From Paraburkholderia aromaticivorans (GTDB taxonomy: Bacteria > Pseudomonadota > Gammaproteobacteria > Burkholderiales > Burkholderiaceae), in assembly GCF_002278075.1 (NCBI RefSeq), contig NZ_CP022989.1:124001-188000 (forward strand): DNA of 64,000 nt. Direction: 5' to 3'. The notes below the pieces were generated by a model. The model had not been told where the DNA came from. It was given only the letters and a program-made list of their open reading frames with translations, and made no database searches. This document shows, in pieces, positions 12,663 through 28,871 of this stretch. The number at the start of each line of letters is the position of its first letter. Within the stretch, counting starts at the first letter, position 1. The position numbers were made by a program, and so were the translations under genes.

Positions 12663-15600
12663 TCACGAATATAGGTCGGTTCCGTCAGGTGCCGTCGCGT
12701 CAGTTGCGTCGCGCAACGCTGGTCGCAGCATCTTCGCGATTTCAGCTTCAGGGACAGCTGGGCTGTACAGAAAACCCTGTCCTTCGAGGCAGCCATGCTC
12801 AACCAGAAAGCGTCGATGAACGTCCAGCTCCACGCCTTCCGCAACGACATCGAATTTCAGCGCGCGGGCGATGGCGATGACGGCAAGTGTCAACGCCTCG
12901 TATTCGGTGTCGCGACCGATTTCCTGAATGAACGCCCGGTCAATCTTGATGCGGTCGATACTGAAGCGTTTCAGGTAGCTCAAGCTCGAGTAACCGGTAC
13001 CGAAGTCGTCAATTGCGATTTTTACCCCAAGCCGGCGCAGGTCCCGCAACACCCGCGCCACCGCGTCGGCATTGCGCATCAGCCCGCCTTCTGTCACTTC
13101 GAGCTCGAGCATTTCCGCAGGCCAGTCGGCCTCTTCCAGCGCCGAGCGAACGATGCTCAACAGGTCCGAGTGCTCCAGCTGAAGCGGCGAAACGTTTACC
13201 GATACCCGGATTGGCGCCAGCCCAGCGTCGCGCCATCGGCCGGCCTGCAGGCACGCTGTGCGCAACACCCATTCGCCGATGCCCTGAATCAATCCCGTTT
13301 CTTCGGCGACCGGAACGAATATGGCAGGTGATACGACGCCAAGCTCCTCGTCATGCCAACGCAGCAGCGCCTCGACACCCTGAACGCGGCCCGTCACCAT
13401 GTCGATTTGGGGTTGATAGGCCACCTGCAGACCCTGATTCTTCACTGCACGCTTTAAACGACCCGAAAGCTGCAATTTCTCGGCGGCCGCGCGATTCAAC
13501 TCCGGCTGGTAAAACTGGTAGCCATTGCGTCCGTTCGCCTTCGCCAGGTACATCGCCGCGTCCGCATTCCTTATCAACGTGTCGGCATCGTCACCATCCT
13601 GCGGATAGGTGCTGACGCCGATACTGGCTTCGACATACAACTCCTGCTCGCCCACATGAAAGGGCTCTCCTATTTCGACAATCAGTCCGTCAAGCATCGG
13701 TATGAGTTGTCCGTCCTTCGAAGGCTCGACAACGATGATGAACTCGTCTCCGCCGTAACGCGCGACCAGGTCACAGGAGCGCACCAGTCGCTGCAGGCGT
13801 TTCGCGACACACGCCAGAAGCGCGTCGCCTACCCGATGCCCGAGTGAATCATTGACCACCTTGAACCGGTCGAGGTCGAGGAAGAGCACCGATACCTGTC
13901 CATCGGTCCTGGTAGCGCGCCGAATCATCTCCGTCAGGTGTTCGTTCAGGTGGGTGCGGTTTGGAAGGTCAGTCAATGCATCGTACCGCGCCTGATGCTG
14001 CAGGCGGGTCTGATAATCGACCACCGCGGTGACGTCACTCATGACGCAAACATGGTGAGTGACCTCTCCGTTCCCGTCGCGCACTGGAGCGCCCAGGACA
14101 TTGACCCAAAACCGCTCGCCACTCTTGCGCGTGCAGAACAGCGTGACGTTCGCGTCGGTGTTGCTGTCCATGGCCTGACGAATGCGTTCCCACTTCTGCG
14201 CCTCACCGTCCTTCCCAAAGAGCGTATTGCAGTCAGTGCCCGCGACGTCTGCCGGCGAATACCCGGTGATACGCTCGAAGGCTGGATTGGCAAAAGTGAT
14301 GACATGACGGTCATTCAGCCGCTCTGCGATAATAATTCCGTTGATGCTCGCGTCTATCGCCCTCGCTTGCAGGCGCAGAGCCAAATCGGCATCGCGTCGG
14401 GCAGTGATGTTTTCGTAGGCGGTGAGCACGCCGGTGATGTTGCCGCTCTGGTCTTCCAGCGGCAGCTTGGTTTCTGAAATCCAGACTTCTGAACCATCGA
14501 CGGCAACCGCTGCACGCTCAAAGTGCCTCTTTGTCAGTTCGCCACGCATCACGCGTACATCTTCGTCCCTTACCTCCTTTGGGTCATCTCCCCATCGCAA
14601 ATCCCCGTCAGTCAGGCCAATCAGGGCGCTTCGGGATGGTAGCCCCGCGTCGCGCGCATAAATCTCGTTGCCACCAGCGTAGCGATGGTCTGCGTCCTTC
14701 CATGCGATGCCCTGCGGAATATGGTCGAGTACATACTCGAGGGTCTGCTTCGACTTGAACAGCTCTGACCTGGCCGTCGCCTCGGTGGTAACGTCCAACA
14801 TGACCGCCATGGTGGACGGAGCACCTTCGAATTCCACGTTCAAATGGTGAACGTCCATCAAGCGACGTTCACCCGCTTTCGTCTGATACACCCACACGCC
14901 GATTGACTGAGCTTCGCCGTAGACCGCCTCGGGTTTCGATTCGCGAGTTTCTCTCAGGCGGGCGAGTTCATCTGCTGGACGCACATCCCGCATCGACATG
15001 GTGAAGAACTCGGATTCTGAATAGCCGAATGCACGTAGCGCGGCGGCATTGACAGCAACGATGCCCAGAGAGGCATTGTCAAATATCCAGATAGGCAACG
15101 GATGTTCGTCAAAGAACCGCTGGTACTTCGCCCGAGCCCTATCGGCGGAGTGCAGGGCCGCTCTTAACCGGTCCGAGATAAGCGAGTTCCAGCGCATGAG
15201 CGCAAGCAGCAGGACGGCCGCCGTCGCACCGCAGACCAGCACAGCATCGGCGACCCATTTGGCGTCCGAGGATGACTTACCGACAGTGGAACTGATAGCG
15301 GTGTCAGCCTCCATCCTCGCATCAACGACCTCTTCGAGAACGCTGTAGAAGTAGGCGTCAATTTCGCTCAGTGCGGGGTCGGTCAACCCGACACTCCCCG
15401 GATGCAATGTCGCCCGTATCGCAAGCGCATTGCTATGCCTCGCCAGCGTTCGAATCATCCTGTCCAGGTCGTCGAGCCGGGAGAGGCACGCATCGCTCCG
15501 GCGGCACCCTCCGCGCGCGTCGCCTGTCAGGTCGAGTAGCGCCGTCAGCGGGAAGATATAGGCCGCCCGCCTGTAGAACGCACGAGTCCCGACCAGTGTG

Positions 15601-15875
15601 TAAAGCTGACCATGTTCATCGAGCATCATCTGCTGGACCTGGTCGAGGTCCTGCTTCAGACGCCCCGAAGCTTGCAGCGTTCGCAGCGAGTTGTCCTGCT
15701 CGCGCGTCTGGCGCATCGCCAGAAACGTGCTCAACGCAATCGCCGAAAGGATGATGGTGACCACGACGAATGTGATTGCCCTACGGACAGCCTTTCCGCT
15801 CAGGATGTCCCCTCCGGGCCAGGCACCTTGGCTTTGCCCCACCGTCTGACGGCTACCCGCCTGATTCACTTTCAT
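12663..15875 (-). CDS. Membrane PAS-GGDEF-EAL cyclic-di-GMP protein
   Basis: A protein of about 1070 residues. The N-terminus carries a membrane helix (AITFVVVTIILSAIALSTFLA), a sensor region of about 150 residues and a second helix (AVLVCGATAAVLLLALMRW), so the sensor is predicted to be periplasmic. Three PAS modules follow (near residues 250, 375 and 505), then a GGDEF domain (RYGGDEF preceded by the inhibitory site RSCD) and an EAL domain with its complete catalytic set (VEALLRW, NVS, EVTE, DDFGTGYSS, KID, AEGVE, GQG). It is likely bifunctional in c-di-GMP turnover. The ATG at 15875 follows agggtg; a GTG at 15881 is alternative. Confidence 0.95.
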   Translation of the reverse strand: MKVNQAGSRQTVGQSQGAWPGGDILSGKAVRRAITFVVVTIILSAIALSTFLAMRQTREQDNSLRTLQASGRLKQDLDQVQQMMLDEHGQLYTLVGTRAFYRRAAYIFPLTALLDLTGDARGGCRRSDACLSRLDDLDRMIRTLARHSNALAIRATLHPGSVGLTDPALSEIDAYFYSVLEEVVDARMEADTAISSTVGKSSSDAKWVADAVLVCGATAAVLLLALMRWNSLISDRLRAALHSADRARAKYQRFFDEHPLPIWIFDNASLGIVAVNAAALRAFGYSESEFFTMSMRDVRPADELARLRETRESKPEAVYGEAQSIGVWVYQTKAGERRLMDVHHLNVEFEGAPSTMAVMLDVTTEATARSELFKSKQTLEYVLDHIPQGIAWKDADHRYAGGNEIYARDAGLPSRSALIGLTDGDLRWGDDPKEVRDEDVRVMRGELTKRHFERAAVAVDGSEVWISETKLPLEDQSGNITGVLTAYENITARRDADLALRLQARAIDASINGIIIAERLNDRHVITFANPAFERITGYSPADVAGTDCNTLFGKDGEAQKWERIRQAMDSNTDANVTLFCTRKSGERFWVNVLGAPVRDGNGEVTHHVCVMSDVTAVVDYQTRLQHQARYDALTDLPNRTHLNEHLTEMIRRATRTDGQVSVLFLDLDRFKVVNDSLGHRVGDALLACVAKRLQRLVRSCDLVARYGGDEFIIVVEPSKDGQLIPMLDGLIVEIGEPFHVGEQELYVEASIGVSTYPQDGDDADTLIRNADAAMYLAKANGRNGYQFYQPELNRAAAEKLQLSGRLKRAVKNQGLQVAYQPQIDMVTGRVQGVEALLRWHDEELGVVSPAIFVPVAEETGLIQGIGEWVLRTACLQAGRWRDAGLAPIRVSVNVSPLQLEHSDLLSIVRSALEEADWPAEMLELEVTEGGLMRNADAVARVLRDLRRLGVKIAIDDFGTGYSSLSYLKRFSIDRIKIDRAFIQEIGRDTEYEALTLAVIAIARALKFDVVAEGVELDVHRRFLVEHGCLEGQGFLYSPAVPEAEIAKMLRPALRDATDATAPDGTDLYS

Positions 15876-16411
15876 CTTCACCCTACATTGTCCCGATTAC
15901 GTCGCCCCACCGGGATAATGACGTTAATCACAGAATTCTTCCGCGCCAGGCGCAGGTAGCTGCCCTGTTCTCAGCTCACGTGGGCTGGCACCTCCAACAG
16001 GCCGCATGGGCGCGGTAACGCGGGAAGAGACTGGCGCTTGGCGCCCTTGGATTGCCCGGGAGTTTCCCGGCAAGTCGACCGTGCTAGGAAAGTCCGACCG
16101 CGCACTCGCGCACGACCTTCCCCCATCATGTTCGAAAGACCCGAAAGGCGCGAATACTCACCGCTGCTGGGGACGATGGCGTTCGCTCGCCATAGCGCTG
16201 GTTTCCGCTCCGAATACCCGCCGCGGGAGCCACCACCTGGAAGCATTCCCCACGACCTGCTTATGGTCACCACTGCGCCCCCCTGCGCTCGCTGCAAGCG
16301 TTTGGCGCAACATGTTGCCGTGACGTAGACGGCCACGCACCTCAAGGTTCAAACGATGGTCCGCGAGAAGGACTGCACAGTGAAAATCTGAAGTGCGCCG
16401 GCAGTAACCGG
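15876..16411. other. Intergenic stretch, no gene seen
   Basis: About 535 bases between the PAS-GGDEF-EAL gene start and the phosphatase gene end. Long frames on both strands mirror each other and have Arg/Pro-rich shadow composition. No RNA gene was recognised. Confidence 0.4.
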
Positions 16412-16921
16412 CTAACCGTCGCACGCGACCTCGTTTCCGCAGGAGTCAGGGTTGACGGCCGTTACAGGCTCCGGCGCGCCCGCGTATCCCGGCAATTCCA
16501 TGAAGAGCGTGACACGGCGCAAAATTTGCCAGAAAACCGTTTCGAACGAGCGCGCACACTCGGCCTGAGTCATACCTTCCGCGAGCGGGTCTGCAAAATT
16601 CCACCTGAAAAAGGGCGGCGCACCCGGAAACACGGGCGCGTGATATTCCTCTACACAGCCATCCATGGCGATGACAAGGTCCATCTGCGGCGCCCACTCG
16701 CTCGTGAATTCAAGCCAGCTTTTTGGACTAAGCCGCTCGAGGTCGGAGATGCCAGCACGCAGTTGCGGCAGGGCCAGTGGATGAACGCGCGCTGCCGGCT
16801 CGGCCCCGGCGCTGAATGCTTCGAACCGGTGGCCTGCCAGTTCGCGCAGCAGTGCCTCGGCGATGATGCTGCGTGCGGAATTCCCCCGGCAGAGAAACAG
16901 CACCCTATATGTTCTGGTCAC
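16412..16921 (-). CDS. Low-molecular-weight phosphatase / arsenate reductase-like protein
   Basis: The 169-residue protein has the low-molecular-weight tyrosine phosphatase fold. The catalytic loop CRGNSAR (C11 to R17, CX5R) lies near the N-terminus, and the acid motif FADPLAEG provides the general acid Asp. Relatives either dephosphorylate phosphotyrosine or reduce arsenate (ArsC). The absence of ArsR, ArsB or ACR3 neighbours leaves the role open. The first Met, MTRTYRVLFLC, matches the family start. A degenerate paralogue is at 6655-6966. Confidence 0.88.
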   Translation of the reverse strand: MTRTYRVLFLCRGNSARSIIAEALLRELAGHRFEAFSAGAEPAARVHPLALPQLRAGISDLERLSPKSWLEFTSEWAPQMDLVIAMDGCVEEYHAPVFPGAPPFFRWNFADPLAEGMTQAECARSFETVFWQILRRVTLFMELPGYAGAPEPVTAVNPDSCGNEVACDG

Positions 16922-17609
16922 GCACCTACCCCATTACGTACATCCTGATTTTGTCCGGAATTCTGCCGGGCCAGTCTTGCACTTCCGTGACAGCACAAAA
17001 GAGCGGAGACGGAATTCGCATCAAAAGGCGGGGAAATTGCTTCCGGGCTGCGTGGTGTCGTGTCACCCGAGAACCGAACATGACGCCATGCGCCTGCCCA
17101 GCAGTCGTTGCTTGCTGACCGAAGCGAGTTTGCTGCCGTCCTGCGGCACTCGCGTAGCCCGTCAACGCAGCAGCCTCACGGAAAGATAGGTCAGACCCGT
17201 GAGCTAAAAAGACCTCCATCCACTTATGGCTTTGTGTCTTAAAGGGCTCTTCATGTCGATGAAGAAGTAAAAAGACATCTAGCGAATGATGTTTTAACTT
17301 TTACCGAGGCTTATTTCAGGTCCCCGGCACTACTCCCAGCGCCGCACCACCGCTCTCCTCAAAAGCGCGGCCGGGCGCAGGTCAGCATGTCCCTGTATTC
17401 CCGACGCGGCATCCCGACCGCCTGAGCAAGCCCCATTTCGGGCCGTCCTTCGCAGAGAGTGCGCATTCAGTTGTACGCCTACGTTGCCTAAACTAGCGGG
17501 AAATACAGCAGGCGTTCTGCGAGCAAGCAATGGGGAAGAACGAATAGAAATTCAGCGATTCTCATGCAGGTCCGTCAGTTCGCTCATTCGTGCTCCCGCC
17601 GTGGGCATC
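16922..17609. other. Gene-poor stretch
   Basis: Nearly 690 bases with no supported gene on either strand. A small inverted repeat (cttcat-gtcg-atgaag, near 17250) occurs close to an AT-rich patch, but nothing ties it to a transcript. Confidence 0.4.
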
Positions 17610-18779
17610 TTAAGCGCGTTGACTGTCAGCCAACCGCGTACCGACAACGCAATTCCGACCCATGGCTTTTGCGGTGTATAGCGCGGCATCCGCTTTTCCC
17701 ATCATGTTGGCCAACGTGTCGCCTTCCTGGTACTCCTCGACGCCGGCACTGAAGGTGTAGATGACTTCGCCTGACGCAACAGCGAGACGTGATGCTGCGA
17801 TACGGACGCGAAGTTGGTCTATCAGACGAAAGGTGTCGACCTGCCCGGTGGACTGAGACAGGACAGCGAATTCCTCTCCGCCGAGGCGGCCGAAGACATC
17901 CCCGCTGCGCAAGCCGCTTGATACTGTGGAAGCGAAATGCGCAAGTACCTGGTCGCCGCCGGCATGCCCGTGCTCGTCATTGATTGCCTTGAACTTGTCG
18001 AGGTCCAGAATTGCAATAGACAGCCGCAACCTCGAATTCCTGGCCTCATCCAGCAATGACTCGGCCTGGGCAAGGAAAGCACGGCGCACAAGCGCGCCGG
18101 TCAGCCCGTCGACGTTTGCCAGGCGCTCCATCCGCTCAGCCATCCGGTCGTGAGCAAGCATGACGACGCCAATCGAAAGACATGGCAGCGCTAATATGGC
18201 AAGACCGAGGAATGCAATGTTTATCGGCGTCGGCGCCAGAAAGGTAGTCTGATGCTCCCACCCCACTACACAGGCGATACTGCGTGATGCGTGGACAGCC
18301 GCACCGAGGAATGCCGCACCCGACAAAAACTGATAGCAATATTTCGGTCTGCCCGGCGGCCGCAACCTGAACACAGTCCAGCCGATGGCGAGACGGGCAT
18401 ACGCAAGAAACGCCGATAGCAAAGCAATTCTGGCGTTGACGTTTGGCGACAGGTATCCCCAATAGACAATCCCAAGCAGCAAGGCGCAGTACGCGACGTA
18501 CTCCAACGAACGCGAAGGCCGAAGACCAAAAAACTCGCGACAGCCCTGCAACATCATGAGCGCCGCAGCTCCGAGCAATGCGCTCGCGACAACGATAACC
18601 GGTGCTGCAGGGGCGGGCGCTTGCAGTGCGAGGAGGACGAGCGCTGCGACTACGACGGCGTTTGCGCAAATCCAGCGCCGCAACCCTTGTATCTGTGCGT
18701 GCAGCAGCGAACCAAACACCGCCGTGCTCACCAAACTGGACATGATTGCGACAACCAGGAGGGTGACGGGGCTGAACAT
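17610..18779 (-). CDS. Membrane diguanylate cyclase (GGDEF)
   Basis: The 389-residue protein has about six hydrophobic helices in its N-terminal 210 residues (from MFSPVTLLVVAIMSSLVSTAVFG to IAFLGLAILALPCLSIGVVMLAH), an MASE-like membrane sensor. A C-terminal GGDEF domain follows, with the active-site motif GGEEF and an upstream RSGD inhibitory site. It should make cyclic di-GMP and respond to product inhibition. The Met at 18779 is preferred because the 59 extra residues upstream are polar and low in credibility; the ribosome binding site is weak. It lies on the minus strand, alone, within the c-di-GMP cluster. Confidence 0.9.
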   Translation of the reverse strand: MFSPVTLLVVAIMSSLVSTAVFGSLLHAQIQGLRRWICANAVVVAALVLLALQAPAPAAPVIVVASALLGAAALMMLQGCREFFGLRPSRSLEYVAYCALLLGIVYWGYLSPNVNARIALLSAFLAYARLAIGWTVFRLRPPGRPKYCYQFLSGAAFLGAAVHASRSIACVVGWEHQTTFLAPTPINIAFLGLAILALPCLSIGVVMLAHDRMAERMERLANVDGLTGALVRRAFLAQAESLLDEARNSRLRLSIAILDLDKFKAINDEHGHAGGDQVLAHFASTVSSGLRSGDVFGRLGGEEFAVLSQSTGQVDTFRLIDQLRVRIAASRLAVASGEVIYTFSAGVEEYQEGDTLANMMGKADAALYTAKAMGRNCVVGTRLADSQRA

Positions 18780-19627
18780 ACCTATTGGCGCGAAGTCGAA
18801 ACTTACAGGGATATGGATTAGCTGGCACCAGAGCGCGTGGCCATGTTGAAGCGCCCTTGGGGGGTTATCTTGAGTCGCAGAGCACGGGCTCCCGTATGCG
18901 TTAACGGCAGGCGGCTGGCGTTCTTGAATTCTCCGCGGATTTCCATATCGGCGCACAGACTCCCCGCGGGGTGAAACCTCATAGATACGGGCATCGTCTG
19001 CAGCACATTAGCCGCCAACGCTCTTTAGCGTATGGCAGCTTCAAAATCGACGAAATGTCACATTGGAAAGAGCGGCGCAGTTGCCTTCACAAACCTCGGA
19101 ACGAAGTGGGTCGCTGCGATAGTATCGAATGACGCTCACCGTCGGGAAAGATTTCCTGAGACCCCAGCGAAGCGGGGACGACATCCGAAAAATCACCGCC
19201 AGCGGCCAGCGATGCCAGGCGTGCGACCCCAAGTGCGGCTATGCACTGAGTGTCGGGCGGCCGGCATATCGGCACTCCATCCGTGACCCGTTCGCGAAAT
19301 TCGCCATGACCTTCGGTTCGCAATTCGCACGAGGTCACCCCCCCAAGCTTGCCAGGGCGGTCATAAAATATATGCGAAAGATTTTCCATGATTATCCAGA
19401 ATTAGCGATGGCCTCCTCTTGGAACCCCACCACTACGAGCGTAAAATGCCGGCCATTAAAGTCAAAGTGTCGGCGACTGCAGTCTGACCTTAATAGCGCC
19501 CGGCAGGAACGTCGCCCTTTATGCGAGCCCTGCGCTCAAGTCTTCAGAACATGTATGGCAAAGTCTCGCTGAATTGCCAGTCCGGTTTGATGATTGTCGC
19601 CAACGCTTGTCGAATTAAAGTTCAGTC
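18780..19627. other. Gene-poor stretch
   Basis: About 850 bases between the membrane GGDEF gene and the HD-GYP gene. Frames such as 19129-19572 (plus) have no recognisable domain. If the HD-GYP gene has lost its true N-terminus, its former upstream part should have been here, but I see no sensor-domain remnant. Confidence 0.4.
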
Positions 19628-20323
19628 GTGAATGTGAAATACCCCGTCGTGGTAACGCTAGCAAGCCTGACTCTCGCTGGCTGCGCGCGCTACCCCCAAG
19701 CTGCCGGTCATCTTATTCGAACCGCCTTCATCGCAGACTGCCTTGCGGATTTGGTGGGCCGGGATGCCATCGAACGGAAACGCATACGCCTGGTTACGCC
19801 CGTACATGACATCGGGAAGCTTGGCATCCCGGACAAAGTATTGCTAAAGCCCGGAAAGTTAAACGGCGAGGAGCGGAGCATCATAGAGCGCCATTCGGCC
19901 ATCGGCGCTGACCTTCTTGCTGGCAGTTCGGACCCGCTCATTCAGCTTGCCTCGCAGGTGGCGCGCCACCGCCATGAGCGATTCGATGGCAGTGGATACC
20001 CGAGCGGCCTGGTGGGAGCCAACATACCATTGGCCGCCCGAATCGTGGCAGTCGCCGATGCCTTCGATGCGATGACGGAGCCAAGGGTGTACCGCACGAA
20101 GATGACTGACGATGACGCCAATGCAGTAATTACTGCGGGTAGCGGCACACATTTCGACCCGCTCGTGGTCAGGATGTTCCTCGCGGGTTTCTCGTCGGTC
20201 CAACGGGCGCGTGCTGCTGCCAACAAAATACTCGCTCTTGAAAATGACGTCGCTGTCGTCACAAAATTCTTCGGCGTAGCCCGCTCCGCATCAAGCTCGA
20301 TGTCGCACCCAAGCGAAACTTGA
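19628..20323 (+). CDS. HD-GYP domain phosphodiesterase, unusual N-terminus
   Basis: The 231-residue frame consists almost wholly of an HD-GYP domain: HD at residues 60-61 (HDIGKLGIPDKVLLKPGKL), RHRHERFDGSGYP with GYP at 123-125, IPLAARIVAVADAFDAMT and GSGTHFDP. HD-GYP enzymes hydrolyse cyclic di-GMP in the cytosol. Here the frame starts at a GTG and reads a hydrophobic stretch ending LTLAGC, which looks like a lipoprotein signal directly joined to the HD-GYP domain. Either the start is wrong, the gene lost its sensor by rearrangement, or the enzyme is exported; the first two seem likelier. There is no recognisable ribosome binding site. Confidence 0.7.
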   Translation: MNVKYPVVVTLASLTLAGCARYPQAAGHLIRTAFIADCLADLVGRDAIERKRIRLVTPVHDIGKLGIPDKVLLKPGKLNGEERSIIERHSAIGADLLAGSSDPLIQLASQVARHRHERFDGSGYPSGLVGANIPLAARIVAVADAFDAMTEPRVYRTKMTDDDANAVITAGSGTHFDPLVVRMFLAGFSSVQRARAAANKILALENDVAVVTKFFGVARSASSSMSHPSET

Positions 20324-20452
20324 ACAGTTCCACACCAACCTCATGCACGGAACAGCGCAACCGCAGGAGACGGGCTCGGCAAGGATGCTCGCCGCACCAG
20401 GAAGCCGCGTCAAGGTGTTCGTACGCCAGCGGCTACTTGACCATATTCACAG

Positions 20453-21244
20453 TTACGGAAAATACGCGGCCGTATCGATTTGCGGAATCGATTTGAAACC
20501 CGGTTTCGCGAAGAAGTAACCTTGCATCAGGCTGACGCCATGTGCAACGAAGAAGTCACGCTCCCCTTTGGTTTCGATGCCCTCCGCGACCACGCGGATG
20601 CCGAGGTCGTCACATATTGATATCACGCCACGTACGATGCGCTGACGCACCGAGTCATTGTCGATGCCGCGGAGGAGTTCCATGTCGAGCTTGATAATGT
20701 CTGGCTGGAAATCCACGAGGAGCGCGAGCCCCGAGTAACCGGCTCCAAAATCATCAATTGCTGTCAGGAAACCAAATTTCTTGTATGCCCTGAAAATCTC
20801 GACGAGATGAGAACGGTCGGCCAGATGTTCTCCCTCGACTGTCTCGAATATAATCTTTTCGATTGGGAAGCCATGCTTCTGCGCAGCGTCCAGGGTGCTC
20901 CTTATGCACACCTCTGGCCTATAGACCGCGTTGGGCATGAAATTGATGGAGAGAAACGCGTCAAGACCTAGCGCGGCGGCACTCGCGATAGCAACCTGCC
21001 GGCAATGCTGGTCGAACTGATACTTCTTCGCGTCATCGATTTGCGATAGCACCGAATGAGCGGATTCCCCGTGCGCACCACGCACGAGCGCCTCGTATGC
21101 AAACGCGGCCTTGGCGCTCACATCGACGATGGGCTGAAATGCGAAATCAATCTCGACAGGCAACGGCGTTGCGTCCCTGCACCCGGAACATTTTTGCGAT
21201 TGTCCGTTACTCCCGTCGTGGCTATGAATCTTCAACGAATCCAT
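20453..21244 (-). CDS. Stand-alone EAL phosphodiesterase
   Basis: The 263-residue soluble protein is one EAL domain with a short Cys-containing N-terminal tail (CSGCRDATPLP). All catalytic residues of the family are visible: YEALVRG, INFMPNA, FETVEGEH, AIDDFGAGYSG, IIKLD, AEGIET and MQGYFF. It resembles the output domain of BLUF-EAL and related single-domain phosphodiesterases and should hydrolyse cyclic di-GMP. It is followed on the same strand, after about 65 bases, by the PAS-GGDEF gene's 3' end (the PAS-GGDEF gene lies upstream of it in transcription), so the three genes 23047-20453 may form one transcript. Confidence 0.92.
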   Translation of the reverse strand: MDSLKIHSHDGSNGQSQKCSGCRDATPLPVEIDFAFQPIVDVSAKAAFAYEALVRGAHGESAHSVLSQIDDAKKYQFDQHCRQVAIASAAALGLDAFLSINFMPNAVYRPEVCIRSTLDAAQKHGFPIEKIIFETVEGEHLADRSHLVEIFRAYKKFGFLTAIDDFGAGYSGLALLVDFQPDIIKLDMELLRGIDNDSVRQRIVRGVISICDDLGIRVVAEGIETKGERDFFVAHGVSLMQGYFFAKPGFKSIPQIDTAAYFP

Positions 21245-21311
21245 CTCTGTCTAACGCCGCCAATGTTTGCTGGTTGGGATTGCGACCGTTTTCCCCGTCG
21301 CCGGGCATCGG

Positions 21312-22652
21312 TCAGTTTTGACCCGCACTATCTTCTTCGCAGGTGGAAGAGGAAACCGCCGTTGAATCCAGCATCTCGCCGCGCACGCAGTTTCGCCCAG
21401 CTCTTTTCGCCTCATAAAGTGCGCGGTCAGCAGCGGCTAGCAGGCTCTGCAGCGTCGGGTTTGCGTGGCTTAGGGTTGCGACGCCAAGACTAACCGTCGT
21501 CTTCAATTTCCCGACCGCTGTGTCGATTCGTGCTCGCTCGACCGCAATGCGCAATCGCTCAGCGACCGCCACTGCCTCGCTGGTCGTCGTAGACGGCAGC
21601 ATAAGAATGAACTCCTCACCTCCGAGCCTCGCCACAGTGTCGGATGTCCGTAACAGTCCCTTCGCCTCGCCAGCGATGCGTTTCAAAACCTCGTCACCCG
21701 CTTGATGCCCTGCCGTGTCGTTGATACGCTTGAAGTAATCCGCGTCCAGCATAACAACCGACAATGCACGGCCATGCCGTTCGGCACGTGCCACCTCGGC
21801 CTCCGCAATTTCAAAAAAGTGGGCTCGGCTCGATACGCCAGTCAGATGGTCGGTCGTAAGCAGGCGCGCAAGGTTATCGCTGTTTACCTTGCGCTCCGTC
21901 ACGTCTCTCAGAACGACCGAATACCCCGCTATCTCCCCTTCCTCTTCGCGCAGCACCGCGACGAGAACCTGCCCCCAGTAGCGTCGACCGCCCCTGGTTT
22001 CACACCAGAACTCCTCTACATGCCAACCCTCGTCACGCGTTAGCGCGATATGCTCCGGTGAGCGGTGCGATACGTGCTCGTCGCGGGCATAAAAGCACGA
22101 GAGTGTGTGCCCGACGACGTCGGTCTCGCCAAATCCCGTCAGGCGTTCAACCGATGGATTCCAGCTTTCAATACGCCCTTGCGCATCAAGCGAGAAGAAA
22201 GCAAAGTCGTTGACGCTCGTGTAGATTCCGGCCAGCCACGATTCTGTTTGCCGCGCTCTTCTCTCGGCCGCAACCTGCCGGGAAATGTCCGTCAGCACCG
22301 TCATCAGCAGATTCTCACCCACCTTGATGATGGAACAGGCGAGCACGACCGCCCCCTCATTGGCCGGCGTCACAAACACCCGGTGGTTTTCACACACTGC
22401 CCCCCGCTCGCCCTCAAAGCTGGCCGCCAGGTTGCGCAGCTCCGGCGCCACTGACGCCAGGCTATCGAAAATATTCTCGATACCGCCGCCTTTTACCAGA
22501 GGCATGAGAAGCTGCGCGGCAAGGGGGTTCATCATGTCCACGAGACCCGCCTGGTCGCTGCGGATAATCCCGACCGGGGACAGGTACATGAACGAGAGTA
22601 ACGCCTCGTATTCGGACTCGAGGTCGTTCGTGTCTGGATTCACCGCGTTCAA
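21312..22652 (-). CDS. PAS-GGDEF diguanylate cyclase coupled to a PYP-like protein
   Basis: This 446-residue soluble protein has an N-terminal PAS-like region (about residues 15-130), a second PAS domain with PAC tail (about 140-260, FFSLDAQGRIESWNPSVERLTG ... GYSVVLRDVTERK in outline) and a GGDEF domain. GGDEF carries ARLGGEEF and an RTSD inhibitory site. It should make cyclic di-GMP. The start is a TTG overlapping the stop of the upstream PYP-like gene as TTGA, with aaggcgg just ahead, so translation is coupled. That arrangement suggests the upstream PAS protein signals to this enzyme. Confidence 0.9.
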   Translation of the reverse strand: MNAVNPDTNDLESEYEALLSFMYLSPVGIIRSDQAGLVDMMNPLAAQLLMPLVKGGGIENIFDSLASVAPELRNLAASFEGERGAVCENHRVFVTPANEGAVVLACSIIKVGENLLMTVLTDISRQVAAERRARQTESWLAGIYTSVNDFAFFSLDAQGRIESWNPSVERLTGFGETDVVGHTLSCFYARDEHVSHRSPEHIALTRDEGWHVEEFWCETRGGRRYWGQVLVAVLREEEGEIAGYSVVLRDVTERKVNSDNLARLLTTDHLTGVSSRAHFFEIAEAEVARAERHGRALSVVMLDADYFKRINDTAGHQAGDEVLKRIAGEAKGLLRTSDTVARLGGEEFILMLPSTTTSEAVAVAERLRIAVERARIDTAVGKLKTTVSLGVATLSHANPTLQSLLAAADRALYEAKRAGRNCVRGEMLDSTAVSSSTCEEDSAGQN

Positions 22653-23047
22653 TGGGCCGCCTTTCGCTCAATCAGGACAAACCGCGTCGCGCAGTCCGGC
22701 GCTTTCAGCAGCCTGAGCCGCACCGGGGTCGGGCGCATGCGCAAGGTCAAAACGTAGGGAACAATATCGTCAATTGCCTCCTCGTCTTCGAAGCGCTGCG
22801 CCACCATGAAATTATTCATGCACGGGGCCACCTCTTCGAAGAAATGTTTCCCTAATACTCGCTGCGCCCGCAATCCGGCGTTCTTCGATTCGGTCGCGTT
22901 ATAGACCGTGACAAGTGCATCCGAGGTAAATCCGATGACGCCAAATGGGACCCCGTCTAACCGGTCCGTGCCCAGTATGGCCAGTTCTGCTATCCGCACA
23001 GCTTCGAATTCGTTGTCCACGCTCTGTCCTATACCCGGTTCCGCCAC
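22649..23047 (-). CDS. Photoactive-yellow-protein-like PAS protein
   Basis: This 132-residue single-domain PAS protein has segments LDGVPFGVIGF, VYNATE, VLGKHFFEEVAPC and MRPTPVRLRL that line up with photoactive yellow protein. The residues matching PYP Tyr42, Glu46 and the chromophore-bearing Cys69 are Y49, E53 and C76, at a constant offset of seven. Thr50 and Arg52 of PYP are Ala and Leu here. PYPs bind p-coumaroyl through the Cys and sense blue light; binding here is inferred. No tyrosine ammonia-lyase or coumaroyl ligase gene is seen nearby. The start is a GTG. Its stop overlaps the start of a PAS-GGDEF gene. Confidence 0.75.
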   Translation of the reverse strand: MAEPGIGQSVDNEFEAVRIAELAILGTDRLDGVPFGVIGFTSDALVTVYNATESKNAGLRAQRVLGKHFFEEVAPCMNNFMVAQRFEDEEAIDDIVPYVLTLRMRPTPVRLRLLKAPDCATRFVLIERKAAH

Positions 23048-23163
23048 ACAAACGTACCCTGCCCAAACATCAGGCCAACCACCCTGTCACGCCATGACCT
23101 GCAAATCGAGGAAGACCTTCAATCACGATGACTTTGCGCGATATACCGCTTATCGACCGATTA

Positions 23164-23847
23164 CTATAAAACTTTAGCAGCGGAGCGATTGATACGTTCC
23201 AGAATATCCGAAGCGGGGCCTGAACGTCCGAGCAGATACCCCTGCACCTTGTCGCACTGCGATGCTTTCAGCATGTCGAGCTGCTGCTGCGTTTCCACGC
23301 CTTCTGCTACCACCGACATACCGAGTTTATGAGCTAGGTCGATAACTCCTTCGACGACCGTCTTTGCCGAACTGTCGTCAGCGATGTCGTCGATGAATGA
23401 TTTGTCCAGCTTGAGGATATCCGGGCTGAATCTTATCAGGTACCTGAGGCTCGAATATCCGGTGCCGAAATCATCAATCGCTATCTTGATACCCAACGCT
23501 CGAATCGCTCCAAGGACGTGCTGAACATCTTCAAAGTTATCAATCAGCGCGGATTCCGTTATCTCAATGACCACTTTCGACGCATTAACGCCACGTTTTT
23601 TGGTGGCGAGCGCGAGTGTTGGCACAAGCCGCGAATCACGCAATTGGGTCGCCGACACGTTAGTCGACATCGTAATTGGTCCGGCATCTGCCTCGGTGAG
23701 TTCACTCAACGCGTTCAAAGTTTCGCGCACAATCCAGTGTCCAACGTCGATGACGAGCCCACTCTCTTCAAGGACTGGGATAAACAGGTCGGGATAAATG
23801 AGCCCCCTGCTTTGTTCGGGTGCGAGCGCCTGCCTGCGGGCTGCCAC
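23164..23847 (-). pseudogene. 5'-truncated EAL phosphodiesterase
   Basis: The frame keeps most of an EAL domain (FIPVLEESGL, TNVSATQL, EITESALID, AIDDFGTGYSSL, ILKLD, AEGVET, VQGYLLGR) but begins after the EALLRW strand, so the catalytic Glu of the EAL motif is missing, and so is any N-terminal sensor or GGDEF domain. Homology starts near 23820. Directly beyond it lies a diverged copy of the leader of the gene at 30227, so the 5' end was probably replaced by recombination. A residual c-di-GMP-binding role cannot be excluded, but catalysis is unlikely. Confidence 0.75.
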
Positions 23848-23960
23848 CGCGCAACCGGTAGGGCTTTAGCGGCACATGCAATTTCGGCACGGCTGACGCA
23901 CGAGCCGACGTCACTGGAGAAACACCATGGAAATGCTGATGATTGAATTTCTGTTCGCGC
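23828..23960 (+). repeat. Diverged duplicate of the leader and signal region of the 30227 gene
   Basis: The stretch from about 23828 to 23960 aligns with about 30130-30260, sharing tttagcgg, cttcgg/ttcgg, gagccga and ggagaaacaccatggaa in the same order. In this copy the ATG at 23927 opens only a 29-codon frame (MEMLMIEFLFARD...), ending in TGA after a few residues of a decayed signal peptide. It abuts the truncated EAL gene. Confidence 0.6.
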
Positions 23961-23997
23961 GCGACGCATGGGCGTTGACCGTGAACCAGAGCACAAC

Positions 23998-24744
23998 CTA
24001 CGAAACGACTCTTTCCTGATGGCCCTGTTCGCCGTGCTCCGCCACTGCGGCAGTCTGCCGGGTCCTTAATCTGCACGTCACGTCCGCTGAGTTCGTCACT
24101 AACCGATACCCCGCTCCGTTGCGCGTCTCGATGCGCTGAGTGCCGAGCTTCTTTCGCAGGCTATGCACATGTACCTGGATTGCATTGCTCTGGACCTCTT
24201 CTCCCCAGCCGTAGATTTTCTCTTCAAGATAAGCAGCGGAAAAAAAGCGGTTAGGCTCCGTGAAGAAGATGCGCAATATTGCGTACTCTCTGGTCTTTAA
24301 AGCGATAGGCGCATCATCAGCCCACACACTGCATGAAGCATCGTCGAGCGTCAGCGTGCCATAAGACACGACGGACCGAAGTTGTCCGATGCGCCGCCGC
24401 ATAAGTGCGCGAATCCGCGCTGTAAGTTCAGTTATATCGACGGGCTTTTCGAGGCAGGCATCGGCACCCGCCTCAAATGCGAGGGTCCGCTCCGCAACGG
24501 AATGCTGCGAACTGAAAGCCACAACGCTTGCCGCACTGCCGCCGGAACGATATTCCTTGAGGATTGAAAGGCTGCCAAGGTCGCCATCGATTCCGAAAAG
24601 AATCAAATCATAAATGTCATTTTCGAGCGCGAGTGCGGCGTGCCGACTGCTGCTAACCCGGTCGACAGCGTAACTTCGCGCCCGCAAAGCCTCCCGCAAA
24701 ACTTCAGCGAACGCGTTGTCGTGCTCATATATCAATACACGCAT
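23998..24744 (-). CDS. OmpR-type response regulator with degenerate receiver
   Basis: The 248-residue protein has an N-terminal receiver-like domain (residues 1-115) and a winged-helix OmpR/PhoB output domain (about 125-225; LKTREYAILRIFF, VHVHSLRKKLG, IETRNGAGYRLV). The phospho-acceptor Asp is replaced: in YDLILFGIDGD the position equivalent to the Asp in YDLVLLDLGLP is Gly51. The acidic pair is E7-H8-D9, while Lys100 (EKP) is kept. Normal phosphotransfer is therefore unlikely. No histidine kinase is adjacent. It probably binds DNA constitutively or under non-phosphate control. The start ATG has only a weak ribosome binding site. Confidence 0.9.
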   Translation of the reverse strand: MRVLIYEHDNAFAEVLREALRARSYAVDRVSSSRHAALALENDIYDLILFGIDGDLGSLSILKEYRSGGSAASVVAFSSQHSVAERTLAFEAGADACLEKPVDITELTARIRALMRRRIGQLRSVVSYGTLTLDDASCSVWADDAPIALKTREYAILRIFFTEPNRFFSAAYLEEKIYGWGEEVQSNAIQVHVHSLRKKLGTQRIETRNGAGYRLVTNSADVTCRLRTRQTAAVAEHGEQGHQERVVS

Positions 24745-25051: not shown

Positions 25052-25386
25052 TGCGCCCGCGCCGACCAGACATCAGTCCCTCTGGAATTGAGCCAAACCT
25101 GCACCGGCAAAATGGCGAATCAAAACCAGCAGGGGTCAACCTGAACGTCGTCGTGCCGGTAGAAAAGCGACACCGGAGGAACGGGGCCAAAGACGTTCTC
25201 AAGCTGGAGCGTGCGCGACAGCGAACTGCAATCGGACATATGCAGGCGACGCGCGGCGAGATGGCTCTGACGACAAAGGTCCTGCTGGAGCTGCTGTCGG
25301 ACCCCGCCTTCGTGGCGCTGTTACGTGCCGAGGGGTCTACCTCGATACCGAAGCTCCTTCATCAACGACTCGTGGAGCGGCGCTAA
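25051..25386 (+). CDS. Hypothetical protein ahead of the RepB-like gene
   Basis: The 111-residue protein is basic, with a C-terminal helical segment (MALTTKVLLELLSDPAFVALLRAEGSTSIPKLLHQRLVERR). The ATG at 25051 has ggagag upstream and overlaps the stop of the preceding frame (TGATG). Its own stop overlaps the next start (TAATG). This tight packing argues that the three frames are one translational unit. Position suggests a link with plasmid-partition-type proteins, but no domain is recognised. Confidence 0.5.
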   Translation: MRPRRPDISPSGIEPNLHRQNGESKPAGVNLNVVVPVEKRHRRNGAKDVLKLERARQRTAIGHMQATRGEMALTTKVLLELLSDPAFVALLRAEGSTSIPKLLHQRLVERR

Positions 25387-26009
25387 TGACGCAAGCCCAA
25401 CCTGCGAGATTCATACGTCGTTCAAACGCGGCTCAAGCCGCGTGCGAAAGACCGCTAGGAATCTGTGCGGAAGCGTTCGCCCTGGTCGTCGGGCAAACGC
25501 TTCCGAAGCGGACAGTCGCAGCGCTCGCAAGGATGACTCCGGCGCGTCAGGTTGCAGCTGCCCGGACGATGGTCGCAATGGATAACCTCAGCGGAGATTT
25601 CGCTAGGGCCCTACTGGCAGCGACGCCATCAAGCGAGAGGGTCGATGATGCTCGGGGGCGACAGTCTCACCCCGATTGCGCAACCCGACTGGCCAGGATG
25701 GAACGGAGGCTCATTCAGATGCAACTCGAAGCGGCAGAGCTGCGCTGGCAATACGACGATGACCTGTTTCATCTGGCGCTTGCCGCCAGTTACGTTCGGG
25801 GCTGGATGCGGAACGAGGTGGTTACAACTTGGCTCTACTCGCACCATCCGGAGTTCGCCATTGTGCTCGACCGCCTAGCGAAGGCGGCAGACTTTGCAAT
25901 CGAGCCAGGGCGCCCAATGCGGCTTCCTTACTCGCCAGCTGCTAGCCCGGCAATATCGCGCAAAGACAAATCAGGTAGACGCTCATCGGCAGGCATCCCG
26001 ACCCGTTAA
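25386..26009 (+). CDS. RepB-like plasmid partition protein C-terminal domain
   Basis: The 207-residue protein matches the C-terminal RepB domain found downstream of ParB modules. LGICAEAFALVVG, VAALARMTPARQVAAARTMVAMDNL, FARALLAATP and the later YDDDLFHLALAASYVRGWM...WLYSHHPEFAIVLDRLA (two segments) all fit the family. The N-terminal ParB nuclease-like and helix-turn-helix parts that normally precede it are absent, so it is either a truncated paralogue or an accessory partner. Full-length relatives take part in plasmid segregation or recombination modules. It is the third frame of a tightly overlapping cluster. The C-terminal tail is basic and low complexity. Confidence 0.65.
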   Translation: MTQAQPARFIRRSNAAQAACERPLGICAEAFALVVGQTLPKRTVAALARMTPARQVAAARTMVAMDNLSGDFARALLAATPSSERVDDARGRQSHPDCATRLARMERRLIQMQLEAAELRWQYDDDLFHLALAASYVRGWMRNEVVTTWLYSHHPEFAIVLDRLAKAADFAIEPGRPMRLPYSPAASPAISRKDKSGRRSSAGIPTR

Positions 26010-26687
26010 GACCACCGCGTACCAACAAGGTAGGTCAAGCAGTGCTGGTAGATGGTCCGCGCTGTTTCCGACCGGAAGTCCAGCCTCAAGTTCTCACAAA
26101 ACAGCATGGTAAACGTCTGTCGCGAAAAAGCGGACAGCGGTGCCGCCTCCAACTGTCGGACCAGTTCCAGAGCGCGACTCGACAGCATGACCCGCTGCAT
26201 GACATCAGCGCCCCCCATTTGTGTTTAACCACAAGGTCGTGGACTCCACGACGTGGTCGGGCGAAAGCCAGTGACCCGTCAATTGTTTCGCGAGCAGGTG
26301 CGACGAAACAAGATAGGCAAGCAGTTCGGCTCGCGCCCGTAGGTCGAGGTTGAGTGGATTCGTCACGCTTAAACGCAGTCAGTAGACTCAACGGGGATGA
26401 TACAGCGGTCAAGGCCAGTGGCAGCTCCTCCGGCTGTGACTGGTCCGTACGGCGGCAAAGAACAGTGAACTTGGTTCGGCCAGTGTCGACCACTGCGACC
26501 AAAGTAAGGCGACCAGGATGCCATGCGCTGGTCGTGCGGAATTCCGAATCCACGTTCTCGTCTTTTTCTCCTTCCGCAGGCTACCAACCTTCCAGCCCTG
26601 TTCAACTTCGTGTCTGTACATGGGGCGATGAAATGACGTTAGCATCGCGGTTCTTCACACAAAAACCTCTCCGTGGAAGTTGCGCAA
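26010..26687. other. Gene-poor stretch
   Basis: About 680 bases. A 70-codon minus-strand frame (26006-26218; MQRVMLSSRALELVRQLEAA...) has protein-like composition but no start signal or known family. Longer minus-strand frames up to 26553 look like noise. Nothing is confirmed. Confidence 0.35.
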
Positions 26688-28871
26688 ATGCCTACCGCCG
26701 AACCCGCCATGTTCCAGCATGACCAGCCGCAAGTTACAAATGACCTCTACAGTCGGAAGCCTTTTGCGGAGCAACTTGGTCGCCTACTGGTGCTACCGCC
26801 GAAGAGTCCCGGCGTTGTCATAGGTGTTGAAGGGCCGTGGGGTTCAGGTAAAACAACCGTGGTGCGTTATATCATCGAGTCGCTCAAGACGGCTGCTGAC
26901 GGAGCACCAATCGTCGTCGAGTTCAACCCATGGATGCTCGCAGGTGCGGACGCGCTGGTTGAGGCCCTTTTGACCGAGCTCGCTTCCGGCATCGGGATGA
27001 ACGCAGGCAAGAAGCGTGCGAAGAAATCGCTGGACGCAGCAGGAAAAATACTGGGATACGCTGGGCTACTACGCCACCTGAAATATCTCAAATACGCTCC
27101 CGGGGTAAGTCTCGTGGGAGTTGCGGCGGATACTGTCGGTACCGCGCTTCACGAAGCAGGAAAATTGGCGAACAAAGCCGGTGAGAATGCGGATAACGCG
27201 AAGAAGATAGTCGAAGAAGCTGAGAAGCTCGTATCCGTCAAAGCTGGGCTAAGTGAACGAAAAAGAGAAGTTATCAAGGCGCTCGCCAAGCTTGACCGCA
27301 GCATTGTCGTCATTGTGGACGACCTTGACCGCTTGACGCCTGATGAAATCAAGGCAGTGTTCCGCACAATCAAGGCAGTCGCGGACTTCCCACGCGTCGC
27401 TTATTTACTCGCGTACGACCGAAACGTAGTTAGCGAAAGTCTTGGCGGTGGCCCGGTCGCAGGGGGCAACGCCTACATCGAAAAAATCGTGCAGGTTGCG
27501 TACCCCATCTCACCTGCATTTCCGTGGCAGTTGCAGTCTCACATTTCTGGCGAGCTTGCCAGCCTGCTGAAGCGTATCCATCGCGAACCCGAGCCCTTCG
27601 AATCCGAGCTGCTGGGGCGGGCCACCACGCTGACGTGCAGCCTCTGTCGGTATCCGCGGGATATCGTGAGGCTCATGAATCGCCTCACGCTTAGCCTGAC
27701 CAGCACAACCCACGAAGTCAACGCGTCAGACGTCATCGTGGCCGAAGCGCTCTTCCAACGATTTCCAGGAATCCGCGACGCGGTAGTCCAGAACCCCGAG
27801 CAGTTCACGGGGTTCTTCTGGTCAGTGGAGGAAGAGGCCAGCTCCACTGATTGGTCAATGTATTTTTCGAACACGAAAGAAGAGAGGCGAACAGCGTGGC
27901 AGGCGCACTTGCCGCCAGACAATGCTGACAAGGCGGTTGCGACGGCTGCGCTCAAGTTCCTCTTCCCAATTACGAACGGCACCGGTTCGAATTCGCCGCT
28001 CCGTAGCCATCTCCGGATATCTGAACTGTCTCGGCTCATTCGATTCTTCACTTTGACCTCAGTGACCGGCGTCCAGGAAGTCGCAGATATCCACGAAATG
28101 CTAGCTGAGCCAAGCCAGCTCGGAGACATGCTAAACGACCTGGATTATGCAAGAGCGACTGAGATGGTCAATCACATGATTGCCTATATCGACACTGCGA
28201 AATCCGTCGACTGCACAGGAGTCGTCCGAGAGCTCATTCGGTCGTGCACAGAGGAGGGACTTCACACGTCATCTACGCGCGAATTTAGTCGCGCCGTCGC
28301 CACCCTGGCCGCGAATTGCATTCAACGGGGCGGGGCTCAGATATTCTCTATCGCCGTCGAATTCGTCAACAGCGTTCCACTTACGTACGGATTGGATTTT
28401 CTCGTGACTGTCGCCACGCGCCACGGGGAGATTCGACTTGTTGACGGGTACAGGATTGAAAATGCCCCCATGTACATCGATGACGCACAAATCTTGTCAA
28501 CTTGCGTTGCTTCTTGGCGCAAGCGGGCAGAAGAATCGATTTTGTCTGGTAGCGTTATTGAAAGTGACAACCTATTCCCCAATCTCTATGGCCTGTCTCA
28601 CGTCGGACGCGACTCCCGTGATATCGATGCAATCAATGCATTCCGAGCGTTTTGTCTCCAAGTGGCAAGCGGGCTAGAGCACTTTTTGGATAGGGCACGT
28701 CCGTATAGAGAGCTTCAGCTTCAAACGTTCTTCCTCTATGTCTGGGACGCGGATGAGATGGCGACGCTTGTCGAACAATCGCCCTTCGCCACTGAATTCG
28801 CTTGGTATGCCGACCAACTTCGGACAGACCTAGTGGCGCGCAAATTTGTCCAAGACAGGTGCAACGCTTGA
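26688..28871 (+). CDS. KAP family P-loop NTPase
   Basis: The 727-residue protein has the KAP signature. Walker A is GPWGSGKTT (residues 49-57), an insertion with hydrophobic and coiled-coil stretches follows (about 118-200), and Walker B is IVVIVDDLDRL (206-216). The C-terminal half is large and helical. KAP NTPases are membrane-associated and include the phage-exclusion protein PifA; many sit in defence islands. The ATG at 26688 has ggaag nine bases upstream; a GTG at 26673 is possible. The gene stands alone here. A defence role is inferred from the family and from the neighbouring accessory genes. Confidence 0.88.
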   Translation: MPTAEPAMFQHDQPQVTNDLYSRKPFAEQLGRLLVLPPKSPGVVIGVEGPWGSGKTTVVRYIIESLKTAADGAPIVVEFNPWMLAGADALVEALLTELASGIGMNAGKKRAKKSLDAAGKILGYAGLLRHLKYLKYAPGVSLVGVAADTVGTALHEAGKLANKAGENADNAKKIVEEAEKLVSVKAGLSERKREVIKALAKLDRSIVVIVDDLDRLTPDEIKAVFRTIKAVADFPRVAYLLAYDRNVVSESLGGGPVAGGNAYIEKIVQVAYPISPAFPWQLQSHISGELASLLKRIHREPEPFESELLGRATTLTCSLCRYPRDIVRLMNRLTLSLTSTTHEVNASDVIVAEALFQRFPGIRDAVVQNPEQFTGFFWSVEEEASSTDWSMYFSNTKEERRTAWQAHLPPDNADKAVATAALKFLFPITNGTGSNSPLRSHLRISELSRLIRFFTLTSVTGVQEVADIHEMLAEPSQLGDMLNDLDYARATEMVNHMIAYIDTAKSVDCTGVVRELIRSCTEEGLHTSSTREFSRAVATLAANCIQRGGAQIFSIAVEFVNSVPLTYGLDFLVTVATRHGEIRLVDGYRIENAPMYIDDAQILSTCVASWRKRAEESILSGSVIESDNLFPNLYGLSHVGRDSRDIDAINAFRAFCLQVASGLEHFLDRARPYRELQLQTFFLYVWDADEMATLVEQSPFATEFAWYADQLRTDLVARKFVQDRCNA

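Follow-up and report, generated by a model that had tools for sequence, protein, structure and literature searches.

Photoactive yellow protein (PYP) is among the most studied photoreceptors. In the genome of Paraburkholderia aromaticivorans, a gene for a 132-residue protein resembling PYP overlaps the gene for a diguanylate cyclase. This arrangement raises the questions of which ligand the PYP-like protein holds, whether the pair is a light switch for c-di-GMP and, if so, how the signal passes from one protein to the other. The window analysed here is a whole stretch of 64,000 nucleotides (assembly GCF_002278075.1, contig NZ_CP022989.1, positions 124,001 to 188,000), and coordinates below count from its first letter. 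The homology to PYP, the predicted PYP fold, the conserved chromophore residues, the gene overlap and the intact cyclase motifs are all in evidence at this locus. We favour, with a probability of about two in three, the reading that it encodes a three-gene c-di-GMP switch consisting of a clade C PYP, its cyclase and an EAL phosphodiesterase, in which light would act via p-coumarate and the cyclase's N-terminal domain (denoted ggN) would receive the signal. The relevant features are:

22649..23047, minus strand: PYP clade C homologue, an ORF of 132 aa with a GTG start
22901..22903, minus strand: codon of Tyr49 (PYP Tyr42 by alignment; kept in 100/102)
22889..22891, minus strand: codon of Glu53 (PYP Glu46 by alignment; kept in 101/102)
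22820..22822, minus strand: codon of Cys76 (PYP Cys69, the chromophore thioester site, by alignment; kept in 102/102)
22649..22652, minus strand: 4-nt overlap of the PYP stop with the cyclase TTG start, from the ORF coordinates
21312..22652, minus strand: diguanylate cyclase of 446 aa with a TTG start (PAS-like N-terminal domain, PAS, GGDEF)
22248..22652, minus strand: N-terminal PAS-like domain (ggN), candidate PYP receiver from the model and co-occurrence, without a Pfam match
21885..22247, minus strand: second PAS domain of the cyclase, limits approximate (Pfam PAS_9, residues 151-253)
21390..21854, minus strand: GGDEF catalytic domain (Pfam PF00990, residues 267-421)
21609-21623, minus strand: GGEEF motif, residues 344-348
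21639-21650, minus strand: RxxD I-site, R335-D338
20453..21244, minus strand: stand-alone EAL protein of 263 aa, third in this same-strand run of genes and 67 nt downstream of the cyclase

The 132-residue protein matches the TIGR02373 (photo_yellow) model with 61.4 bits (E 8.8e-17) and does not reach the curated cut-off of this classical PYP equivalog, 143.05 bits. In a sequence search of the PDB, PYP chains match at E ~1e-12; among the 35 sequences with E ≤1, 33 have E ≤1.6e-5 and are all PYP or PYP-derived, and the remaining two (E 0.9) are unrelated to PYP. Structure prediction followed by comparison with the PDB likewise points to the PYP fold, with PYP structures matched ahead of other PAS proteins and the best 37 entries all PYP or PYP-derived. 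Given these entries and the relatives described below, the identification as a PYP is far above chance. The alignment confirms the correspondence of Y49, E53 and C76 to PYP Tyr42, Glu46 and Cys69 at an offset of 7 that had been proposed in a preliminary description of this DNA, and the VAPC stretch and MRPT (MTPT in PYP) are present as stated there. Farther along, the offset drops from 7 to 4 after a net deletion of three residues, with M104 matching Met100; PYP Phe92, Phe96 and Trp119 are replaced by Val, Leu and Phe, and Met100 remains Met. The preliminary description also singled out Thr50 and Arg52 as changed. They are, to Ala50 and Leu52, but these two residues are the consensus of 984 PYPs according to Dohmen 2025 (PMC12826048), so the substitutions are ordinary rather than odd.

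TIGR02373 covers only about 20% of the PYP homologues (Xing, Gumerov and Zhulin 2022, PMC9664959), and the protein is therefore filed under clade C of these authors rather than under the equivalog. Clade C is described in that work as having lost Phe92, Phe96 and Trp119 while keeping Met100, as coming mostly from Burkholderiales and as adjoining GGDEF genes. The window protein has every one of these sequence marks (homology, the Tyr, Glu and Cys, the loss of Phe92, Phe96 and Trp119, Met100, and an adjacent GGDEF gene), and nothing sets it apart from the published clade. Thus, by its sequence, it is a member of the PYP family in the wide sense and of clade C, a poorly studied Burkholderiales branch that as of 2022 lacked a thoroughly characterised protein (PMC9664959). 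Relatives on plasmids are labelled 'phosphonate transporter', as the same paper reports for PYP homologues.

A scan of genome contigs (the genome_contigs set) with sequence words, some of which included the Cys, produced 89 relatives, of which 80 were kept. All 80 have the Tyr, Glu and Cys; Thr50 is Ala in 77/80, Arg52 and Phe96 are both Leu in 80/80, and Met100 is kept in 80/80. The Cys in these relatives was rejected as proof of function because some scan words contained it, and conservation was recounted on the clade C sequences that whole-genome profile searches had supplied, 38 of them distinct; the PYP profile used for these was itself built from Cys-bearing sequences. The Cys is present in 38/38 of these and Tyr-x3-Glu in 36/38, the exceptions being the sequences of loci L107 (Tyr42 to Phe) and L188 (both Tyr42 and Glu46 lost). 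All 102 distinct clade C sequences together, a set from which 10 divergent PYPs and both fragments of a split copy in genome G095 (locus L118) were excluded, keep Cys69 in 102/102, Glu46 in 101/102 and Tyr42 in 100/102, so the conservation of C76 among homologues is borne out. In a tree of 114 rows the 102 form a single clade C branch (SH-aLRT 100); this is a quick tree from few columns, in which long branches meet at the base.

As first described, the PYP stop overlaps the TTG start of the cyclase; the four bases 22649-22652 are shared. The accompanying claim that the two proteins are made together is supported; such pairing has already been published for clade C (PMC9664959). The cyclase had been called a PAS-GGDEF protein; both domains were found (Pfam GGDEF, 7.7e-45; PAS_9, 8.9e-17), but a further domain ahead of the PAS had been overlooked. 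Across 29 orthologues of the cyclase, GGEEF at residues 344-348 is invariant and R335 and D338 of the I-site are nearly so. The active-site and inhibition-site motifs are intact in the window protein, which is predicted to be an active diguanylate cyclase. The third gene of the run encodes the 263-aa EAL protein (Pfam EAL, 6.1e-45; NF052265 RimA, 396.7 bits with a cut-off of 430), and the order PYP, cyclase, EAL recurs in loci L006, L007 and L009-L012.

The overlooked domain, ggN, comprises the first ~135 residues of the cyclase. The Pfam scan of the window ggN yielded no family, and that of 34 ggN members yielded no family in more than two members, all matches being weak. The model (pLDDT 89.9) predicts a PAS fold flanked by helices. 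An origin of ggN as a degenerate PYP copy was considered and rejected: hhalign gives only 4% probability (E 0.01) for PYP against ggN, below the 88% for PYP against the ordinary second PAS domain of the same cyclase.

We traced ggN and PYP across genomes with two profiles that both derive from clade C loci, the one for ggN having been trained on 34 neighbours of PYP. Of the 398 genomes in the family sample, 47 match the PYP profile at E ≤0.001; 26 of these matches are strong (≥145 bits), and the other 21 genomes, with weak partial PAS-like matches (~26 bits or less, mostly in longer frames), were not counted. ggN is present in 26/398 genomes, exactly those with the strong PYP match, and the profile search found it in none of the other 372; at most 10-11 first-look candidates per genome were scored, so that very distant PYP-free relatives of ggN could be missed. 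In the order sample, it is present in 11/399 genomes, exactly the 11 with a clade C PYP. Genomes without a clade C PYP yielded no ggN at E ≤1e-6 (family) or ≤1e-5 (order), and none was found in G519, a Burkholderiales genome that has four divergent PYPs only. The two samples overlap, sharing the window's own genome (G000) and some other family genomes, and the Fisher values for the co-occurrence are descriptive only, as they ignore shared ancestry.

The arrangement of the genes is equally regular. ggN opens the next downstream gene in 102/102 distinct clade C PYPs; counted from the first possible start codon, this gene lies ≤30 nt from PYP in 99/102, overlaps or abuts it in 66/102 and shows the exact 4-nt overlap in 49/102. 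The 102 downstream frames include one cut by the contig end (L014) and three of small size (L008, 59 aa; L116, 93 aa; L081, 147 aa). The usual output after ggN is GGDEF. Output domains were scanned in 10 partners chosen as unusual, and these include GGDEF-EAL, EAL with PAS-GGDEF, HisKA-HATPase (L039, L187) and PAS only (L030, L061 and the upstream copy in L028). The last of these loci, from Roseomonas, carries two clade C PYP-ggN pairs in tandem, the first followed by PAS only and the second by GGDEF.

Plasmids show the same association: among 72,556 plasmid records, a set not wholly independent of the genome samples (NZ_CP049159 and NZ_CP071131 equal contigs of G250 and G081 in length), 13 match PYP and 11 match ggN, all 11 being among the 13, and in all 11 the two are adjacent at the best place of each. 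Of the two PYP-only records, one is a Comamonadaceae plasmid (L249) with a clade C PYP and no ggN found in the 8.3 kb read, and the other is from Niveispirillum, with 27.7% identity. Conversely, a ggN copy in a 68% complete genome (G557:C41) has no PYP in the 14 kb read. The viral contigs searched contained no ggN.

Thus, the pairing of PYP with ggN is nearly exclusive. Because ggN tracks clade C PYP while the outputs vary, we propose that it is the dedicated receiver of this PYP. The receiver idea is the new part; the adjacency of PYP and GGDEF in clade C is already published. No description of ggN was found in the consulted parts of PMC9664959 and PMC12826048, and those of the former yielded no mention of the N-terminal domain of the cyclase or of the clade to which neighbouring ligases belong. 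A broader proposal, to which we give even odds, is that ggN is a receiver plug of clade C that places GGDEF, EAL and histidine-kinase enzymes under light control in trans, and that in lineages that lost the dedicated ligase, where the sensor would be charged only with p-coumaroyl-CoA of plant origin, the pair would respond to the coincidence of light and plant phenolics.

The alternative to a receiver is that PYP does respond to light while the cyclase is merely a co-expressed neighbour, with ggN sensing something else and PYP signalling elsewhere. It would accommodate the clade C PYP of L249 without ggN, and also the fact that ggN starts the third gene in many loci and so is not confined to the first partner. 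We nevertheless regard it as unlikely: the search found no ggN in the 372 family genomes that lack a strong PYP match, ggN is absent from the genome with divergent PYPs only, and it adjoins PYP throughout the 102 loci while the output domain changes.

As to the ligand, the preliminary description reported no chromophore-synthesis gene near the window PYP, which is correct for this region of this genome, and suggested a different ligand or a redox-sensing Cys. Relatives of the locus speak to this suggestion. The NCBIfam model TIGR02372 describes a 4-coumarate:CoA ligase (cut-off 334.7 bits) and, because of where its matches fall, we infer that this is the ligase of PYP operons. Three ligases were scored with it: that of L019, whose gene immediately precedes a clade C PYP gene, reaches 328.3 bits; that of L077, flanked by one PYP of classical type and one of clade C, 362.7 bits; and that of L120, next to a classical-type PYP, 345.3 bits. 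Other ligases were recognised with our own profile of 12 such enzymes. In L073, L074 and L080, the gene runs read lyase, ligase, PYP, cyclase, EAL; in L077, the run is lyase, classical-type PYP, ligase, clade C PYP, cyclase, EAL. On the Caballeronia plasmid NZ_CP049319, a clade C PYP with its cyclase and EAL genes faces a ligase gene and a gene annotated as photoactive yellow protein. Overall, a ligase lies ≤400 nt away in 14/102 clade C rows, and its presence on the tree requires at least nine changes of state, or four if only the starred branches are trusted.

TIGR02372 picks out six of the 398 family genomes at 188-345 bits (one over the cut-off); the next score is 138.3. Each of the six also belongs to the 26 PYP genomes, leaving 20/26 without such a ligase. 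In three of the six (G197, G081 and G160; 328, 324 and 319 bits), the ligase adjoins the sole detected PYP, of clade C. The same holds for G659, G687 and G452 of the order sample, where PYPs were sought at E ≤1e-10 and the ligases were scored by our own profile alone (445-542 bits). The ligase of G048, G250 and G031 instead accompanies an additional PYP of classical type, and that of G031 is only half contained in one frame. Two further genomes (G191, G277) keep PYP with its Cys and lack the ligase of their near relatives, so the sensor can apparently outlive its ligase; such retention fits an outside source of p-coumaroyl-CoA and also a changed role. None of the 14 rows of the subclade around the window PYP has a ligase within 400 nt.

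Several of these loci are peculiar in their own right. Clade C and classical-type PYPs share one locus in L077, L010, L024, L119 and L250, with a single ligase that is nearer the classical-type gene. The aligned relative set contains five conspicuous sequences that have Thr50, Arg52, Phe96 and Trp119. The open frame of the ligase near the two PYPs in L010 and L121 covers just the C-terminal half of the enzyme (217 aa). In the G519 genome, which has no clade C PYP, a tandem array of four divergent PYP homologues is interrupted by a ligase-like gene of 246 bits (L242, G519:C1:133878-137364).

The window's own genome (8.9 Mb in 8 contigs) contains no TIGR02372-type ligase: the best match, an AMP-ligase fused to an ApeI-like dehydratase ~2 Mb from the PYP locus, reaches 127.6 bits against the cut-off of 334.7. 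There are three MIO-type lyases, one of them beside this fused gene (C1:2.1 Mb), and by our reading the cluster is of the aryl-polyene type. As a supply of PYP chromophore it is unproven and was set aside, its ligase being far below the 4-coumarate:CoA ligase model. The genome also encodes a p-hydroxycinnamoyl-CoA hydratase/lyase (502.6 bits, cut-off 276), so that p-coumaroyl-CoA is probably made there during hydroxycinnamate breakdown; no CoA ligase motif was found within 16 kb around this gene.

The other explanation of comparable standing is that Cys76 is a redox or electrophile sensor, or holds a different acyl ligand, and that photoreception has been lost and the cyclase is controlled in the dark. 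The lack of a PYP-type ligase in the window's genome would fit, as would the replacement of Phe92, Phe96 and Trp119 by Val, Leu and Phe, since these residues tune the photocycle or UV absorbance (PMC9664959). We nevertheless consider it improbable. Tyr42 and Glu46, which serve the phenolate and not a thiol switch, are almost as constant across the clade as the Cys, and 4-coumarate:CoA ligases adjoin clade C PYPs, in six genomes without any other detected PYP and in the lyase-ligase-PYP-cyclase runs of L073, L074 and L080. We read these ligase neighbours as good evidence that clade C proteins would bind p-coumarate; they favour p-coumarate and light over a redox thiol, and the different-ligand or redox suggestion is accordingly not the one that we prefer.

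The preferred reading, a light switch operating through p-coumarate and ggN, would work in the following steps. Cys76 would carry p-coumarate as a thioester, which blue light would isomerise. The N-terminal domain of the cyclase would then sense the changed surface of PYP, a PAS-PAS contact being the simplest way, and this readout would alter the activity of the GGDEF domain and, together with the EAL enzyme, shift the c-di-GMP level. Given no dedicated ligase, a different CoA ligase would have to supply the p-coumaroyl-CoA, probably the one that serves hydroxycinnamate breakdown, and the sensor may for this reason be charged only when plant hydroxycinnamates are present. That the window pair is instead a decaying copy, with the ligase lost and PYP apo and non-functional in this lineage, is very improbable even given the missing ligase and the decay seen elsewhere in the clade (the split PYP copy in G095 and the pocket-poor L188), because the PYP and cyclase frames of the window are intact with all three site residues present, and the 14-row subclade around the window PYP, in which no ligase lies ≤400 nt away, keeps these residues as well.

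We know of no measured property of a clade C PYP-cyclase pair; several known systems are similar in part. The PYP of Halorhodospira halophila (PDB 2PHY) has Thr50 and Arg52 where the window protein has Ala and Leu along with a net three-residue deletion, and it is provided with ligase and lyase genes (PMC12826048), neither of which stands beside the window PYP gene. The Idiomarina loihiensis PYP, implicated in biofilm formation (van der Horst 2009, cited in PMC12826048), is likewise linked with GGDEF signalling; unlike the window's clade C protein, it belongs to clade A and has a measured photocycle (447 nm). In the Ppd fusions of PYP, phytochrome and GGDEF/EAL, as in Thermochromatium tepidum (PMC12826048, PMC9664959), PYP is an input to c-di-GMP enzymes, as proposed here; however, Ppd is one fused protein with a phytochrome, whereas in the window PYP and cyclase are encoded by distinct, overlapping genes and a phytochrome is lacking.

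The signalling partner of the model PYP was called unidentified in 2022 (PMC9664959), and that of the H. halophila protein was still so called in 2026 (PMC13250908). Clade C offers one constant, short partner domain on a separate protein, suitable for joint expression and testing with PYP. If the contact is real, it would provide a defined interface for PYP signal transfer and a two-part optogenetic module, one that already drives cyclases and, apparently, kinases in nature.

The locus lies within a run of c-di-GMP genes (window 12663-24744), in which the domain scan identified, besides the genes listed above:

12663-15881: PAS-GGDEF-EAL protein
17610-18956: GGDEF protein
19628-20323: HD-domain protein resembling HD-GYP
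23164-23847: EAL protein adjoining the PYP gene on its upstream side, Pfam match from profile position 41 on

The front part of the last protein is apparently missing from the open frame, as its EAL match begins only at that profile position; EAL stretches upstream of PYP also occur in L106, L111 and L116. In G095, the second clade C PYP copy (L118, G095:C2:1887545-1887897) is split in two frames beside an open receiver-GGDEF frame. Near the window locus, a KAP-family P-loop NTPase of 732 aa (26673-28871) and a protein with a RepB-type plasmid partition domain (25386-26009) may mark a mobile segment.
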